Part shown: positions 3,726-25,610 of the stretch, one piece after another | How positions within the stretch are numbered: the stretch's first letter is position 1 | Layout of the letters: each line of letters opens with the position of its first letter | Assembly (NCBI GenBank): GCA_025937135.1 | Contig: JAICRZ010000011.1 | Location: 1 to 33,214, forward strand | Source of the DNA: Thermoleophilaceae bacterium | GTDB lineage: Bacteria; Actinomycetota; Thermoleophilia; Solirubrobacterales; Thermoleophilaceae | Direction: 5' to 3' | DNA length: 33,214 nt | Notes under the pieces: generated by a model | What the model was told of the DNA's origin: nothing | Database searches by the model: none | What the model saw: only the letters and a program-made list of their open reading frames with translations | Translations under genes and position numbers: made by a program

Positions 3726-4070
3726 TTACCCGGGCTGTCCGCCGCCCGCGCGTTCGGACGAGTGCCCGGGTCCCGGCCACGGGGCGAGCACCAGCACCAG
3801 GCGGGTGTCCGACTTGGCGGTCACCTCGTGCGGCTCCGATCGCTCGAAGTGCGCGAGGAAGCCGGGGCCGCCGGTCTGCGAGCTGCCGTCGGCCGAGAGC
3901 TCGATCTCGCCGTCGGCGACGAACAGGTACGCCCGCTCGTGGACCTGGTGCTCCTGGAGCTGCTCACCCGCGGGCAGGTTGATCGCGATGACCCGGGCCT
4001 CGCCGTCGGAGCGCAGCACCTGCGGCTGATGCGGCTGCACGTCGAGCGAGTTGATCTCCCAGGTGTCCAC
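3726..4070 (-). CDS. small single-domain cupin protein
   Basis: A 114-residue protein with one cupin barrel. The two cupin motifs can be read as GEQLQEHQVHERAYLFVADG (residues about 35-54), supplying two His and a Glu-like set of metal ligands, and GFLAHFERSEPHEV, supplying a late His. Single cupins of this kind are small-molecule binding proteins, isomerases or dioxygenases, and no specific activity can be assigned. The start is GTG with a good AGGAG ribosome site 9 bases upstream. The C-terminal 20 residues (GPGHSSERAGGGQPG) are low complexity and probably disordered. It sits 43 bp after the antiporter stop on the opposite side from the acylase, and may be co-transcribed with the antiporter. 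Confidence 0.8.
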   Translation of the reverse strand: MDTWEINSLDVQPHQPQVLRSDGEARVIAINLPAGEQLQEHQVHERAYLFVADGEIELSADGSSQTGGPGFLAHFERSEPHEVTAKSDTRLVLVLAPWPGPGHSSERAGGGQPG

Positions 4071-4113: not shown

Positions 4114-5352
4114 CTATGCCGCAACCCCGGGGGCTTCCGCGCGCTCGGTCCGTTCGGCGATCCACTCGGCCCCCGCGTGGTCGGTCAGGCCGTGCGCGAT
4201 GATCGACGTGAGCACCGCCAGCGACGCGATCTCGAAGACCCTGTCGCCCGCCCGGATCCCCTGGCTCAGCACGAGCAGCGAGAACGTCATCGTGGCCACG
4301 CCCTTCGGCCCGAACCAGCCCATGAACGCACGCGTGGCGGCATCGGTGCGCGTGCCGAGCAGCGCCGCGAACACGGCGACGGGACGCGCGGCCAGGAGCG
4401 TGAAGGCGACTATCGCGACCGCCGCCCAGCCGTCGCTGAACAGCCCGCCGAACGTGAGCAGCGAGCCGAACACGACGAAGATCCCGAGCTTCACGATCTC
4501 CAGGAGGTCCTCGGCGCGCGTCTCGAACGCGCCGCGGATGTCGGGCCGGCGGATGCCGAGCACGATCGCGCACACGAACACCGCGATCAGGCCGTTGCCG
4601 TTCGGCGGCAGCACCGCCAGGCCGTAGGTGGCGAACGCGACCCCGACCGCGAACAACGCCTTCTGCTTCGGACTGACCTCGCTGCGCAGCGCGACGCTCC
4701 GCGGCATCGCCACGGATGCGACGTAGCCCACGATCAGCCCGGTCGCGAAGCCCACCGCCACGTCCTGGAGCACGAACTTCCACCACACGAAGCCGGTCTG
4801 GCTCGGGTCGAGCGCGCTCGCGAACGCGAGGACCGCCGGCAGCGCGAGCCCGTCGTTGAGCCCCGACTCGAGGTTCAGCGAGTGCCGGATGATCCGCGGC
4901 ACGCGCGGGTTCGTGACCACGCTCGACGAGAGCACCGGGTCGGTCGGCGAAAGCAGCGCGCCCAGGAGGAACGACTCCGTCCAGCCGAGGTCCGTGAGCG
5001 CCTTGGTCGCCAGAGCGACGAGCACGCACGTCAGCGGCATCGCCAGGACGAGCTTGCGAAACGGCAGCCGCCAATGCGTCTGGAGCATCTCGGCCTCTAC
5101 CTCCAGCCCGTCGCGGAAGAGGATGAGGATGAGCGCAACCGTGGCGAGCGCGCTGACGAAGCCCGACCCCGCCCCGAAGTGCAGGACCTTGACGCCCCCG
5201 TCGCCCAGGACGAAGCCCGCGACGACGAACACGGCGGTCAGCGACAGGAAGCTTCGTCGCGCAAGGCCGGCGATGACGGCGCCGAGCACGAGCAGCCCGC
5301 CGAGCACGACGACCGTGTCGTTGAACGCGTCGGTCCCCGCGGCGGCGATCAC
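4114..5352 (-). CDS. cation:proton antiporter (CPA family, NhaP/KefB-like)
   Basis: A 412-residue polytopic membrane protein with about 12 hydrophobic segments, expected to exchange Na+ or K+ for H+ across the cytoplasmic membrane. Characteristic stretches are LLGALLSPTDPVLSSSVV, where the Asp-Pro pair belongs to the ion-binding core, SGLNDGLALPAVLAFA, the typical ESxxNDG motif of CPA1 exchangers, and FGPKGVATMTFSLL near the end. There is no C-terminal TrkA-N (NAD-binding) or CBS domain, so it is not a full KefB/C potassium channel-type antiporter. It starts with GTG 13 bases after the stop of the duplicated Cys-pair protein, which suggests co-transcription. Which cation it carries cannot be decided from sequence. 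Confidence 0.9.
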   Translation of the reverse strand: MIAAAGTDAFNDTVVVLGGLLVLGAVIAGLARRSFLSLTAVFVVAGFVLGDGGVKVLHFGAGSGFVSALATVALILILFRDGLEVEAEMLQTHWRLPFRKLVLAMPLTCVLVALATKALTDLGWTESFLLGALLSPTDPVLSSSVVTNPRVPRIIRHSLNLESGLNDGLALPAVLAFASALDPSQTGFVWWKFVLQDVAVGFATGLIVGYVASVAMPRSVALRSEVSPKQKALFAVGVAFATYGLAVLPPNGNGLIAVFVCAIVLGIRRPDIRGAFETRAEDLLEIVKLGIFVVFGSLLTFGGLFSDGWAAVAIVAFTLLAARPVAVFAALLGTRTDAATRAFMGWFGPKGVATMTFSLLVLSQGIRAGDRVFEIASLAVLTSIIAHGLTDHAGAEWIAERTERAEAPGVAA

Positions 5353-5365
5353 GCCGCCTAGGGTG

Positions 5366-6262
5366 TCAGAGACCCTCGTCGAGGAAGAGCTGCGAGTCGA
5401 ACAGGAGCGCGGCCGCCGCGCGGTAGACGAGCGGCCTCCGGGCGTCGAAGCGGCCGATGCCGAGTGGAAGCGTCACGCCGCCGTCGGCGCCCTCGAGCGG
5501 CTGCCAGACGAGCCAGTCGCGGCTGAGCGTGTCGAACCAGATCCGCGGCTCGTCGTCACCGCTGCGATCGGTGTTGCGTTCGGTCCCCGTGCGGCAGCAC
5601 GGGCAGCCCTCGCGTGCGACCAGCTCGAGGCACGCGAGCGCCTCGTCGCAGGCGGCCTCGACCGCCCCGCGGCCGAAGCTCGTCAGCGGAAGCTCGAAGC
5701 CGCCGCACTCCAGGCACGCGGTGAACAGGCGCCAGCGGCCGGAGCCGGTGTCGTAATAGATCGTGGACGCGCCGGCGCGGTCGACCTCGTTCGGGGTCGC
5801 GGCGATGCGCAGCGGCAGGCGGCTGCCGCATGTGAGAGCGCGGGCGGCGGCGCGAACTTCCTGCGGCGCCCAGAAGGTGCGGATGCCGAGCGGCAGCGAC
5901 GCGCCCTGCGCGCCGCCCGCCAGGTCGGTCCAGACCATCCATTGACCGGTGGCGGTGTCCCACCAGACCTGCGGGCCGTTGCCGTGCGGCGAAGGGTTCT
6001 CACGCCAGCTCCGCGCCTCGCAGCCGAGACAGCCGCCGCGGGCGTGGATGCGGGCCAGGAAGGCGCCGGCGCGGGTGGCCGCGAGCTCGCCCTCCTCGGC
6101 GTCGCGCACCTGGAGGAGCATGCGGTAGCCGCCGCAGGCGTCGCAGTGCGCCTCGACCGACCAGTCGCCCTCGTCCGGCAGCCAGGTGACGTCGGTGCCG
6201 GGGGCCTGCTCGGTGAGGATCGAGTCTGACTCGTGGCGATCTCGGCGGAAGACGGCGCACAT
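5366..6262 (-). CDS. unrecognised protein with two tandem Cys-pair/Trp-rich repeats, possible zinc binding
   Basis: I do not recognise a named family. The 298 residues split into two similar halves of about 130. Each half has a Cys pair followed by Gly-Gly (CDACGGY at 40-46; CLECGGF at 183-189), a helix rich in Ala, a second Cys pair (CLGC at 78-81; CPCC at 220-223), then a W.D......W..W segment (VWWDTATGQWMVW; IWFDTLSRDWLVW) and a shared LPLGI. Two further related strands (TWLPDEGDWSV; IYYDTGSGRWRLF) begin each half. Four Cys per half in two pairs suggest one zinc site per half; this is inferred. There is no signal peptide or membrane segment, so it is probably cytoplasmic. It lies between an anti-sigma kinase and the antiporter on the same strand. 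The ATG has only a weak ribosome site. Confidence 0.75.
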   Translation of the reverse strand: MCAVFRRDRHESDSILTEQAPGTDVTWLPDEGDWSVEAHCDACGGYRMLLQVRDAEEGELAATRAGAFLARIHARGGCLGCEARSWRENPSPHGNGPQVWWDTATGQWMVWTDLAGGAQGASLPLGIRTFWAPQEVRAAARALTCGSRLPLRIAATPNEVDRAGASTIYYDTGSGRWRLFTACLECGGFELPLTSFGRGAVEAACDEALACLELVAREGCPCCRTGTERNTDRSGDDEPRIWFDTLSRDWLVWQPLEGADGGVTLPLGIGRFDARRPLVYRAAAALLFDSQLFLDEGL

Positions 6263-6316
6263 GGCGCCTGTCTTGTTCCCAACAGGGGGGGCGTCTAACC
6301 CCGGCCGGTAAGCGGG

Positions 6317-6835
6317 TCAGACGGTGGTTTGCGTACCGAGCCGGAGGCGCGCCATCGGCCCGCGCCGAAAGCGGCTGTCCGGCCGCGTTTCCTGCTGCGC
6401 CTCCGACTGGGCGGAGGCCGCCTCCTGCGGCTCCTCGAGCTGCTCGTCAGCCACCCGCCGGGAGCCCATCTCGAACCAGACGCAGGTGCCGGCTTCGCGG
6501 TCGACGCCCCAGCGGTGCGAGAGCCGGTCGACGATGAAGAGGCCCCAGCCGCTCTCGTCGCCGCCGTCGGGCGGGACCGGCTCGAAGCCGTGGCCGCTGT
6601 CGGTGACGGTCACCCGCAGACAGCCGTCGTCGTCGATCGTGACGTCGAGGCGCAGCTCGTCGTCGGGGCCGATGTCCGAGTGGAGCACGGCGTTGGTCAC
6701 GAGCTCGCTCACGCAGAGCGAGGCGTCGTAGAAGACGCCTGCGTCGAGCAGCGAGTCGAACCCGTCGAGGGCCCTCCGCGCGGCGGACACCGCCTCGGGG
6801 CGGCTGCTGAATTTGAACGAGCGTTGTTCTGCCAT
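6317..6835 (-). CDS. RsbW-like anti-sigma regulatory factor (HATPase_c_2 serine kinase)
   Basis: A 172-residue protein with a single GHKL ATPase domain, as in partner-switching anti-sigma factors that hold a sigma factor and phosphorylate an anti-anti-sigma protein. The N box is visible as ELVTNAVLHS, the G1 box as DSGHGF and the G2 box as GWGLFIVDRL. The last 45 residues (from about VADEQLEEPQ) are a Gln/Glu/Arg-rich tail not needed by the fold. I chose the ATG at 6835 because AGAGG sits 8 bases upstream; the longer frame to 6883 adds a poor N-terminus. No sigma factor or STAS-domain partner lies nearby, so its target is unknown. Actinobacteria carry many orphan proteins of this class. Confidence 0.9.
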   Translation of the reverse strand: MAEQRSFKFSSRPEAVSAARRALDGFDSLLDAGVFYDASLCVSELVTNAVLHSDIGPDDELRLDVTIDDDGCLRVTVTDSGHGFEPVPPDGGDESGWGLFIVDRLSHRWGVDREAGTCVWFEMGSRRVADEQLEEPQEAASAQSEAQQETRPDSRFRRGPMARLRLGTQTTV

Positions 6836-6887
6836 TCTTGGCCTCTGAAGTAACCCTCGTTGGGGACGCGTCCTTGCGCCCAAGGTG

Positions 6888-6932: not shown

Positions 6933-7652
6933 TCACACAGCGCGGTCGGACCGCTGACCGAGCCGCCGGAGCACGGTTCCGCAGCCGGTGAAGAGCGCGC
7001 CGAGCAGCGCGACCACGAGCACCTGGAGGCCGGTGTTGGGAAGCGTGGGCCTCTGCGGCGCGGCTTTGGCGGCCGGCGATGCCGGCGCGGATGGCGAGCC
7101 GGTGCCGCGGCTGCTGCTCTGGCTCGGGGACGCCGCCGCCGCTCCGTTGACCACGACGGTGCCGTGCATGTTCGGGTGGATCGCGCAGATGTAGGCGAAG
7201 CGGCCAGGCTTCGAGAAGGTGTGCGAGGCGCTCTGGCCCTTCTTCAGGGTGCCCGTGTTGAAGCTGCCGCCGCTCGCCGTGGCTGTGTGCGGGGCGCTGT
7301 CGCGGTTCGTCCAGGTGACGGTGTCGCCCGCGTTCACGGTCACGGTCGGCGGTGCGAAGGCGAAGTTCTGGATCGTCACCGCGCCGGCCGCGGCCGCGTG
7401 GACCCTGGGCTTCTTCTTCGGGAGCGGCTGTTCCTTCGCCGCGACGACCTCAGGCTGCGGCTGCGGCGGTGGCGGCGCTGGCTGCGGCTCTGTCTGCGGA
7501 GGCTCGACGGCGGCCGCGCCGTCGCCCGATGGCGCGACCGCCGGAGCCGTGGACGGAGGGGCCGACGGCGCCGCGGGCACGCCCGCGTCCGCCAGCAACG
7601 CGCTGGGCACGAGCAGGATGCCTGCGACCGCGGCTGCCAGGGCACTCCTCAC
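6933..7652 (-). CDS. cell-surface blue-copper (plastocyanin-like) protein with LPxTG-type tail
   Basis: A 239-residue exported protein. Residues 1-22 form a signal peptide, and 23-85 are a Pro/Ala-rich linker. Residues about 90-170 form a cupredoxin domain (AVTIQNFAFAPPTVTVNAGD). The type 1 copper ligands are all visible: H122 in SAPHTA, and C156, H159 and M162 in CAIHPNM. A second Ala/Ser/Pro-rich linker leads to LPNTG (204-208), then a hydrophobic helix and a basic end (RRLGQR), the layout of a sortase cell-wall anchor. The domain probably moves single electrons at the cell surface. No sortase is in the window, so anchoring is inferred. The start codon is GTG, with a small hairpin (7654-7668) just before it. 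Confidence 0.85.
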   Translation of the reverse strand: MRSALAAAVAGILLVPSALLADAGVPAAPSAPPSTAPAVAPSGDGAAAVEPPQTEPQPAPPPPQPQPEVVAAKEQPLPKKKPRVHAAAAGAVTIQNFAFAPPTVTVNAGDTVTWTNRDSAPHTATASGGSFNTGTLKKGQSASHTFSKPGRFAYICAIHPNMHGTVVVNGAAAASPSQSSSRGTGSPSAPASPAAKAAPQRPTLPNTGLQVLVVALLGALFTGCGTVLRRLGQRSDRAV

Positions 7653-7688: not shown

Positions 7689-7805
7689 TCAGAAGTCTCC
7701 GCCGCCGCCGAAGTCGCCGCCGCCGCCGAAGTCGCCGCCCCCGATGTCGCCGCCGAAGTCGTCGCCGCCGCCGAAATCGCCGCCGTCACCGAAGTCGTCG
7801 CCGCC
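7689..7805 (-). repeat. tandem (D)FGGG-coding repeat at the 3' end of the membrane protein gene
   Basis: Units of roughly 15-18 bases (plus-strand form close to GAAGTCGCCGCCGCCGCC) repeat with small changes and encode GGGDFGGG-type peptides. Such a tract may vary in length between strains through slippage. The reading frame stays open through all copies. Confidence 0.7.
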
Positions 7806-9014
7806 CCAGCCGCCGCCGAAGAAGCCCGGCCCGCCCCAGCCGAACCCGCCGCCGAGCATCTCGCCCACCAGCAGGCCGCCGAGGAAGCCGCCGCCGCCGA
7901 AGCCGCCGAAGAAGCCGCCGGCCCACGGCCCGTAGTACGCCGGGGCGTTCCAGTAGGGCACGCTCCGGCCGCCCACCTCGATCTCGCGCATGCTCGGGTC
8001 CTGCCCGCTCTCCACCCGCTGAGCGTCGGCCGCACACGCCGGGACCGGGCGCGGCGCCCCGCCGGGCGGCGCCCACTCGACGTCGCGGACGGACGGCCCG
8101 TGACGCGGGTCGAAGAAGCACGGCGGCCGATGCTCCGGCGGTTCGCGGCCCTCCAGCCGCGCGCGCGCCGAGGCCATCTTGTAGCGGCCGTCCTGCACCA
8201 TCGAGGTCACCGGCGCGAGGTCGTCGGGCCGCTGCGCCGCGTCGAACGCCTCCTCCGCGCGCGTGTACAGCTCGACCGCCTGGCCGTACTCGTCCACCGC
8301 GGTGCGGTCGGCGTTCGGCATCTCCACGTCGAGGTCGAGCGAGCGGATGTCGTCGCCGAGCGCGACGAGGTCGTCGCGAGCCACGCGCTTGACCTCCTCG
8401 AGCTGGGCCCGCTCCTCCTCGCGGCGGCGGCGGCGTTGACGACCCGCGTAGGCGAACCCGAGCACGAAGATCACCGCCAGGATGATCAGCGGAACGGTCG
8501 AGCCGATGCCGCCGCCGGTTCCACCACCACCCCCGCCGCGCGCGTCCGCCACGCGGTCGACGAAGTCGTCGAGCACCGCCTGCGCGCCCTTGCCGCGATC
8601 GTCGGCCGCGACCTGTCGCGCGATGTCGCCGGCGTGGACGTCGGTGCTGCCGGCGCGCAGCTTCGAGCCCGCCACGAGCGCGTAGGTGCCCTGGCGGCCG
8701 AGGGCGTCGTGCAGCTCGCGCAGCATCGTGTCGGCCGAGCCGCCCGTCTCGCTCAGCGCCGACCCGGGCACCACGGCCACGTAGACCGCGCCGGCGTCGC
8801 CGTTCTCGATCCGCTGCGTCAGCTCGCGCTCGGCGCTCCCGCCGAGGATGTTCGTCGCGCGGTGGTCGACACAGACCGGACGGTCCTCGAGGCAGGTGGC
8901 CGCGCGATCGACCGTCGTGGCGGCGTGGGCGGGCGCGCTCAGCGCGAGCGCGAGCAGAGCCGCGAGCTCAATCGCCCAGACCGGCCGCGCGCAGCGCTTC
9001 TTCCTGGTTCGCAT
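7689..9014 (-). CDS. single-pass membrane protein, TPM-like outer domain and Gly/Asp/Phe-rich tail
   Basis: A protein of about 441 residues. A signal sequence (LAALLALALSAPAHA) is followed by an exported domain of about 140 residues resembling TPM-type domains (ELTQRIENGDAGAVYVAVVPG), a Gly-rich hinge, one transmembrane helix (VPLIILAVIFVLGFAYAG) and a basic, coiled-coil-like inner region (QRRRRREEERAQLEEVKR). Next comes a conserved-looking stretch (CFFDPRHGPSV, then GGAPRPVPAC) and a C-terminus made of Gly/Phe/Asp repeats such as GGGDFGGGGDF. Its function is unknown, and the TPM likeness is a judgement by eye. The frame is open to 9044, but the ATG at 9014 gives MRTRKKRCAR before the signal core. 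That start still overlaps the upstream NTF2-like gene by 47 bp, which hints at coupling. Confidence 0.7.
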   Translation of the reverse strand: MRTRKKRCARPVWAIELAALLALALSAPAHAATTVDRAATCLEDRPVCVDHRATNILGGSAERELTQRIENGDAGAVYVAVVPGSALSETGGSADTMLRELHDALGRQGTYALVAGSKLRAGSTDVHAGDIARQVAADDRGKGAQAVLDDFVDRVADARGGGGGGTGGGIGSTVPLIILAVIFVLGFAYAGRQRRRRREEERAQLEEVKRVARDDLVALGDDIRSLDLDVEMPNADRTAVDEYGQAVELYTRAEEAFDAAQRPDDLAPVTSMVQDGRYKMASARARLEGREPPEHRPPCFFDPRHGPSVRDVEWAPPGGAPRPVPACAADAQRVESGQDPSMREIEVGGRSVPYWNAPAYYGPWAGGFFGGFGGGGFLGGLLVGEMLGGGFGWGGPGFFGGGWGGDDFGDGGDFGGGDDFGGDIGGGDFGGGGDFGGGGDF

Positions 9015-9366
9015 AGACACGTCCGAACACGATCTTCCCGGCACGGAGCCTCCAAACCCAGCCAGTCGGCCGGTCGATGATCATCCCGCCGCCGCGTCCG
9101 TGGATTCGCCCGAGCGCCACGACGGTCTCCCCCATGTCACGGAAGTCGTTGGGATAGACGCGCAGCTCGTCCCAGACGCGGCCGACGTCCTCGAAGTAGC
9201 GGGCCATCCCCTCGTGCCCGCGGTACGGGATGCCGCCGGTCGTGAGGTTCGCCGTCACGGGGAGGAACTCGACCTCCTCGTCCATGACCTCGAGGATCGC
9301 CTCGACGTCGCGCGCGGCGAACGCGGCGAAGGCCCGCCGGCACAGCTCCACGTTCGCCTCTGACAC
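8968..9366 (-). CDS. SnoaL/NTF2-like protein
   Basis: A 132-residue protein of the NTF2-like fold. The opening MSEANVELCRRAFAAFAARD is the usual helix of SnoaL-like proteins, and YRGHEGMARYFEDV and VWRLRAGKIV are the typical middle and late strands. Members are cyclases, isomerases, or binding proteins of unknown role, and no catalytic residue can be picked out with confidence. The start is GTG, 28 bases beyond the 3' end of the tRNA-Gly on the same strand. Its 3' end overlaps the start of the TPM-like membrane protein gene. A role linked to that neighbour is possible but not shown. Confidence 0.8.
   Translation of the reverse strand: MSEANVELCRRAFAAFAARDVEAILEVMDEEVEFLPVTANLTTGGIPYRGHEGMARYFEDVGRVWDELRVYPNDFRDMGETVVALGRIHGRGGGMIIDRPTGWVWRLRAGKIVFGRVYANQEEALRAAGLGD

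Positions 9367-23001: not shown

Positions 23002-23012
<11 letters not shown>
22236..23012 (-). CDS. tpiA: triosephosphate isomerase
   Basis: Interconverts dihydroxyacetone phosphate and glyceraldehyde 3-phosphate. The 258-residue TIM barrel has all catalytic residues: K15 in GNWKMFK, H99 in LLGHSERR, and E171 in AYEPIWAIGTG, with the phosphate-gripping VLYGGSVKPGN and GALVGGASL near the end. The ATG lies 11 bp inside the 3' end of pgk, and the stop overlaps the gpmI start, so translation is coupled on both sides. Nothing unusual in length or sequence. Confidence 0.97.

Positions 23013-25610
<2,598 letters not shown>

Follow-up and report, generated by a model that had tools for sequence, protein, structure and literature searches.

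A rare, unnamed family of proteins built from tandem βββα units with putative zinc sites in one actinobacterial order

A gene on the minus strand at positions 5366..6262 of the window, the whole 33,214-nt stretch of Thermoleophilaceae DNA analysed here, encodes a 298-aa protein composed of four βββα units. By profile searches it belongs to a lineage-restricted, unnamed and rare family, with credible members in six of the 232 genomes searched in its order. The protein is highly likely to be a duplicated domain with two structural zinc sites, still putative, and two of its four mini-domains very probably hold a zinc atom. The working reading of its role, with a probability of about 0.4, is that of a stress-induced acidic adaptor with structural zinc, which may tune a co-transcribed antiporter.

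The ORF begins with ATG, is covered by a full-length structural model and has a homologue in a genus mate, G001 (locus L003), the protein of which is 78% identical at the amino-acid level. Comparison of the two genes by the Nei-Gojobori method gives dS 0.47, dN 0.15 and a dN/dS of ~0.32, and the neighbouring antiporter gives similar values in the same comparison (dS 0.50, dN 0.145). The ORF is a real gene under purifying selection. The constraint resides in the units, above all in unit 4 (dN/dS about 0.11); the N-terminal 22 residues and the linkers are under less of it, and linker 2 has a dN/dS above 1, a value taken from a stretch of only 10 codons, like each of the linkers. The sequence-only reading had described a tandem duplication in which each half carries CxxCGG, a second Cys pair and LPLGI, and this description is borne out. 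CxxCGG lies at residues 40 and 183, the second pairs are CLGC at 78-81 and CPCC at 220-223, and LPLGI lies at residues 123 and 265. The two halves align with a score of 157, which none of 2000 shuffles reaches (31.6, sd 5.6), and the spaced pattern CxxCG-(29-37)-CxxC occurs twice, a number reached by 0/5000 composition shuffles. The W-rich strand, said to occur four times, does so only if the looser forms at residues 27 and 169 are counted; the strict form, W.D..W..W, occurs twice (100 and 242). The calculated pI of the protein is 4.83, it contains no lysine at all, and the calculated values for the proteins of the window genome (G000), G001 and a further genome, G132, are 4.8, 4.8 and 4.6, respectively.

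Each half is itself the product of a duplication, in which a Cys4 βββα unit is followed by a Cys-free βββα unit. By unit alignment, unit 1 (residues 23-85; 6008..6196, minus strand) and unit 3 (residues 164-226; 5585..5773, minus strand) are of the Cys4 type, whereas unit 2 (residues 96-150; 5813..5977, minus strand), with a single cysteine, C145, outside the site positions, and unit 4 (residues 237-293; 5384..5554, minus strand), the most conserved of all, are of the Cys-free type. Site 1 consists of the pairs C40/C43 (6134..6145) and C78/C81 (6020..6031), and site 2 of C183/C186 (5705..5716) and C220/C223 (5594..5605), all on the minus strand. Profiles of the Cys4 and Cys-free units align in hhalign with a score of 27.5 against 8.3 (sd 1.9) for column shuffles, 0/300 of which reach it, and an earlier run with other settings gave a score of 20.8 at E 5.6e-4. 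By these profile comparisons, the two kinds of unit are homologous and descend from one ancestor. Over six genomes, all four cysteines are present in 9/9 first units, and none or one cysteine is found in 8/8 second units; loss of the cysteines as a set in the second units matches the prediction of a shared metal site. The gap between the Cys pairs is 33-34 residues in seven units and 30 in that of G100. In the G174 unit it is only 22, so that most of the helix is missing there, which counts against the explanation preferred here.

Structure prediction agrees with this partition. An AlphaFold2 model of the two-unit domain, built on eight domain sequences, has a pLDDT of 89.2 and a pTM of 0.79 and folds into two βββα units, with strands at 17-21, 26-31, 39-46, 90-94, 99-106 and 109-116 and helices at 51-68, 71-80 and 126-138. 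For the full protein, a prediction of which had been proposed as a check, the model (m4ce5144e7b3b, five sequences; pLDDT 78.8, pTM 0.68) contains four βββα units. In the first units of each domain, the model places the first Cys pair in the turn that joins β2 and β3 and the other pair after the long helix; if this helix packs back along the sheet, as the topology suggests, both pairs would come to lie at one pole. The profile statistics, the all-or-none pattern of the cysteines and the modelled topology together support the earlier proposal of a duplicated domain of zinc-binding type with pseudo-symmetric strands. In the preferred explanation, CxxCGG in the turn between strands β2 and β3 and CxxC where the next helix ends would together hold one metal ion per domain, presumably zinc in a structural role.

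The earlier statement that no family could be named is upheld in the libraries searched (Pfam, NCBIfam, PADLOC and PDB), none of which gives a clear match to a known domain. Neither Pfam nor NCBIfam has a match for the 298-aa protein as a whole, PADLOC matches neither this protein nor its relative in G132, and a literature search found no paper on such a family. Single-member library matches for the domains, such as EspG (0.013), DUF7340 (0.04), phrog_30062 (0.0048) and others, are weak. The matches among PDB sequences are to Toxoplasma gondii AP2IX-6 (E 0.33-0.41) and to designed propellers, the latter over a short hairpin of Kelch type; with the domain profile, nuclear-receptor zinc fingers also appear, at best at E 0.25, and the Cys-unit profile finds three weak matches only, the best at E 0.62. 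Structure searches also give no clear match, from which novelty of the fold does not follow.

The family is confined to a few genomes. Profile A2, made from the first domains, has hits in 5/232 genomes of the order, in 2/299 sampled genomes of the class and in 2/396 of the phylum sample, the last two being the window genome and a chance frame in an enolase locus (G531). A wider profile (A3) finds 6/399 class genomes, among them G414, which was judged a chance match, as was G097. The Cys-unit profile (A6) finds 8/232 order genomes, six of which were accepted (G000, G001, G100, G132, G136 and G174), and 1/168 in the phylum, namely the window genome itself; A6 already includes the unit of G136, which was first found independently at E 7.5e-5. 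Frames of 26 aa with a stop in G039 and of 45 aa in G054 were regarded as chance on account of their shortness. A scan of a genome collection returned one locus, that of G001, and no relative was found in plasmids, phages or viral contigs. Since in the genome searches a score is given to the top first-look candidates alone (for example, the best 17 of 77 in G000) and several genomes are incomplete, these absences are not strict. The G132 relative has the two-domain form of the window protein, and those of G100 and G174 are single domains. The G136 relative, of 182 aa, has a single Cys unit and, at its N-terminus, a hydrophobic stretch that is probably a membrane segment; inspection by eye suggests a Cys-free unit before the Cys unit, but profile A7 does not find it.

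A sequence that resembles a SigB-type promoter, GTTAGA-13-GGGAAC (6275..6299, minus strand), lies 12 nt before the ATG and is matched exactly in G000 and G001. In both genus members CCGGCCGGGGTTAGACGC, a variable stretch and then GGGAACAAGACAGGCGC are kept before the ATG, and the gene further upstream differs. PMC8346170 gives GTTTAA-N12-14-GGG(A/T)A(A/T) as the SigB-type consensus and GGGAAC as the -10 box of one S. coelicolor promoter. The putative promoter agrees with this consensus at 5/6 positions in the -10 and 4/6 in the -35 box, with its spacing of 13 inside the 12-14 range. With the -10 box only 12 nt ahead of the ATG, the mRNA would be nearly leaderless. With at most one mismatch, the pattern is found at a single place in each of G000 and G001, in either case before the 298-aa gene, and at three places in G012 and four in G021 with other sequence; one site per genome at this stringency does not reveal a regulon. 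SigBFG-family sigma factors score over the cut-off in 5/5 genomes tested.

In the window, the minus-strand order is cupredoxin, HATPase, the 298-aa gene, antiporter and cupin. The sequence-only reading had placed the gene between an anti-sigma kinase and a cation antiporter on the same strand, and rightly so; the upstream neighbour is a HATPase_c_2 anti-sigma-kinase-like gene (6317..6883, minus strand; PF13581, 1.7e-16), and a Na+/H+ exchanger family gene begins 13 nt downstream (4114..5352, minus strand; PF00999, 6.8e-36), with an equal gap in L003. The cupin gene that follows (3726..4070, minus strand; PF07883, 2.5e-09) adjoins the antiporter in 4/5 loci of other genera. The order in G001 is cupredoxin, homologue, antiporter and cupin, and the HATPase gene was not found beside the homologue. 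Five orthologues of the antiporter from other genera are 69-72% identical to it, and the 298-aa gene is absent from all five of their loci within 1.5 kb flanks. G012 and G021 have the order cupredoxin, HATPase, antiporter. These loci without the 298-aa gene suggest cupredoxin-HATPase-antiporter-cupin as the older unit, which the gene seems to have entered in one genus. As a separate observation, G012 and G021 have the HATPase gene immediately ahead of the antiporter, and in the window the 298-aa gene separates the two (6317-6883; L019 7507-9266; L032 545-1048; L034 850-1458).

Elsewhere, the relatives in G100 and G136 have a USP gene as neighbour, that in G174 a BrkB-family membrane protein together with a zinc dehydrogenase, and that in G132 a cupredoxin; no antiporter adjoins any of these four in the stretches read. 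Two recurrences may be recorded here: USP genes adjoin the relatives in both G100 and G136 (L018 6519-7094; L025, upstream part), and a cupredoxin-domain gene lies near the target or its relative in G000, G001 and G132 (window 6933-7652; L016 2705-3118; L019 8430-9266), although the G132 context otherwise differs. Two further observations concern other parts of the window: 7689-9044 encodes a protein of 451 aa, whose C-terminal tail is very rich in glycine and whose best Pfam match has an E-value of 0.29, and the phosphoglycerate kinase ORF at 23002-24741 has about 190 residues ahead of its PGK match (193-568), its start having probably been set too far upstream.

The tie to the antiporter, linked to the gene in both genus members but not in the 5/5 loci of other genera, is one of genus level only, as the differing contexts elsewhere also indicate. 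The hint at stress or ion response that had been drawn from the neighbours is therefore weak as argued, because the kinase gene was not found beside the G001 homologue and the antiporter occurs without the gene in five loci out of five; the SigB-like promoter adds separate support to it. In the preferred explanation, a SigB-type stress sigma factor would switch the 298-aa gene on, and the antiporter and cupin genes, across gaps of 13 and 43 nt, would be transcribed with it. The acidic, soluble product would act as an adaptor, not an enzyme; the tryptophan-rich faces of its sheets would bind a partner protein, which could be the antiporter or a regulator of it. A genus-level insertion that has nothing to do with the antiporter and persists for some other housekeeping or stress role, in an operon that is incidental, is rather unlikely; it would account for the antiporter orthologues without the gene and for the relatives in four other genomes without an adjoining antiporter, whereas the 13-nt spacing has been kept in both genus members at a dS of about 0.47 and the gene's own promoter would drive the antiporter and cupin as well. 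Still less likely is a thiol/zinc redox switch like the zinc-binding anti-sigma factors or Hsp33, which would release zinc under oxidative stress and signal to a partner. Two invariant Cys4 sites, a stress-type promoter and, in some genomes, neighbours of the kinase, USP or PNPOx-like kinds are in keeping with such a switch; however, both pairs are CxxC knuckles that sit where predicted secondary-structure elements end, as is the case in structural sites, the family searches match neither anti-sigma factors nor Hsp33, and the neighbours are inconstant.

Improbable, too, is a nucleic-acid-binding regulator in which the tandem βββα units would work as tandem AP2 domains do, zinc being an extra clamp, to control the antiporter operon or others. 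Indeed, a tandem AP2 structure is the best structural match; 6sy0_B ranks first in Foldseek for the domain model (E 0.055, prob 0.57), and VIA aligns 6sy0 with the domain model over 55 residues at 3.0 Å (Z 5.8) and with the full model over 56 residues (Z 6.2). The weak profile match to AP2IX-6 and the top match in the viral structure library, a phage HNH endonuclease at E 0.043 where none reaches E 0.001, point the same way. However, both Z-scores fall below the guide level of 8. Several T. gondii mitoribosomal chains rank after 6sy0 at Z 4-5, and unrelated ribosome and Mediator chains outrank it in Foldseek with the full model. When AP2 profiles are compared with the units in hhalign, 61/300 and 81/300 column shuffles reach the observed score, and since the score is thus no better than that of shuffles, the protein is not filed as AP2. 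The Pfam AP2 model (PF00847) does not match the window protein and is found in 0/119 Actinomycetota genomes searched, and the acidic pI and the lack of lysine speak against general nucleic-acid binding.

What can be said of the family is that it is real, unnamed and local in spread, with no strong functional surprise; it is small, is held by none of the domain libraries searched, and has a clear unit-by-unit history. If the promoter and operon are read correctly, the structural-zinc adaptor would be a candidate accessory protein of a cation/proton antiporter under general-stress control in a poorly studied bacterial class; if not, it would be one of many lineage-specific zinc proteins. The boldest version is a long shot: a zinc βββα fold family not described before, perhaps a tandem AP2-like fold of bacteria, would have evolved by duplication, zinc being lost from every other unit, and in one actinobacterial genus it would act in the cytosol, induced by SigB, to regulate a Na+/H+ antiporter.

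Among known systems, the Kelch repeat hairpin (SAKe designs, KLHL12) shares about 20 residues, 'YDP..N.W', that resemble the W-hairpin, but the match amounts to only 4-5 bits per repeat, and a Kelch propeller is ruled out since both models are βββα with long helices and lack four-stranded blades in a ring. The Cys-rich tail of a DUF1998-like helicase (L002) is weakly similar (E 7.8e-4, 34% over residues 152-224); kinship was rejected, as the first Cys pair is absent and profiles fail to recover the match. Zinc ribbons and treble clefs have in common with the window protein two CxxC knuckles of CxxCGG and CPxC flavour, and no family of either kind is matched in the libraries; unlike these folds in their usual form, the modelled window protein has a strand and a long helix between its pairs, and its second pair stands at the C-terminal end of the helix. 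AP2/ERF-type domains, in which a three-stranded antiparallel sheet packs on a helix, as in the tandem of ApiAP2 SIP2 (6sy0), resemble the modelled protein in βββα order and tandem layout and give the best, if weak, structural match, whereas the window protein, for which profiles lend this likeness no support, is acidic and carries a Cys4 site in alternate units.
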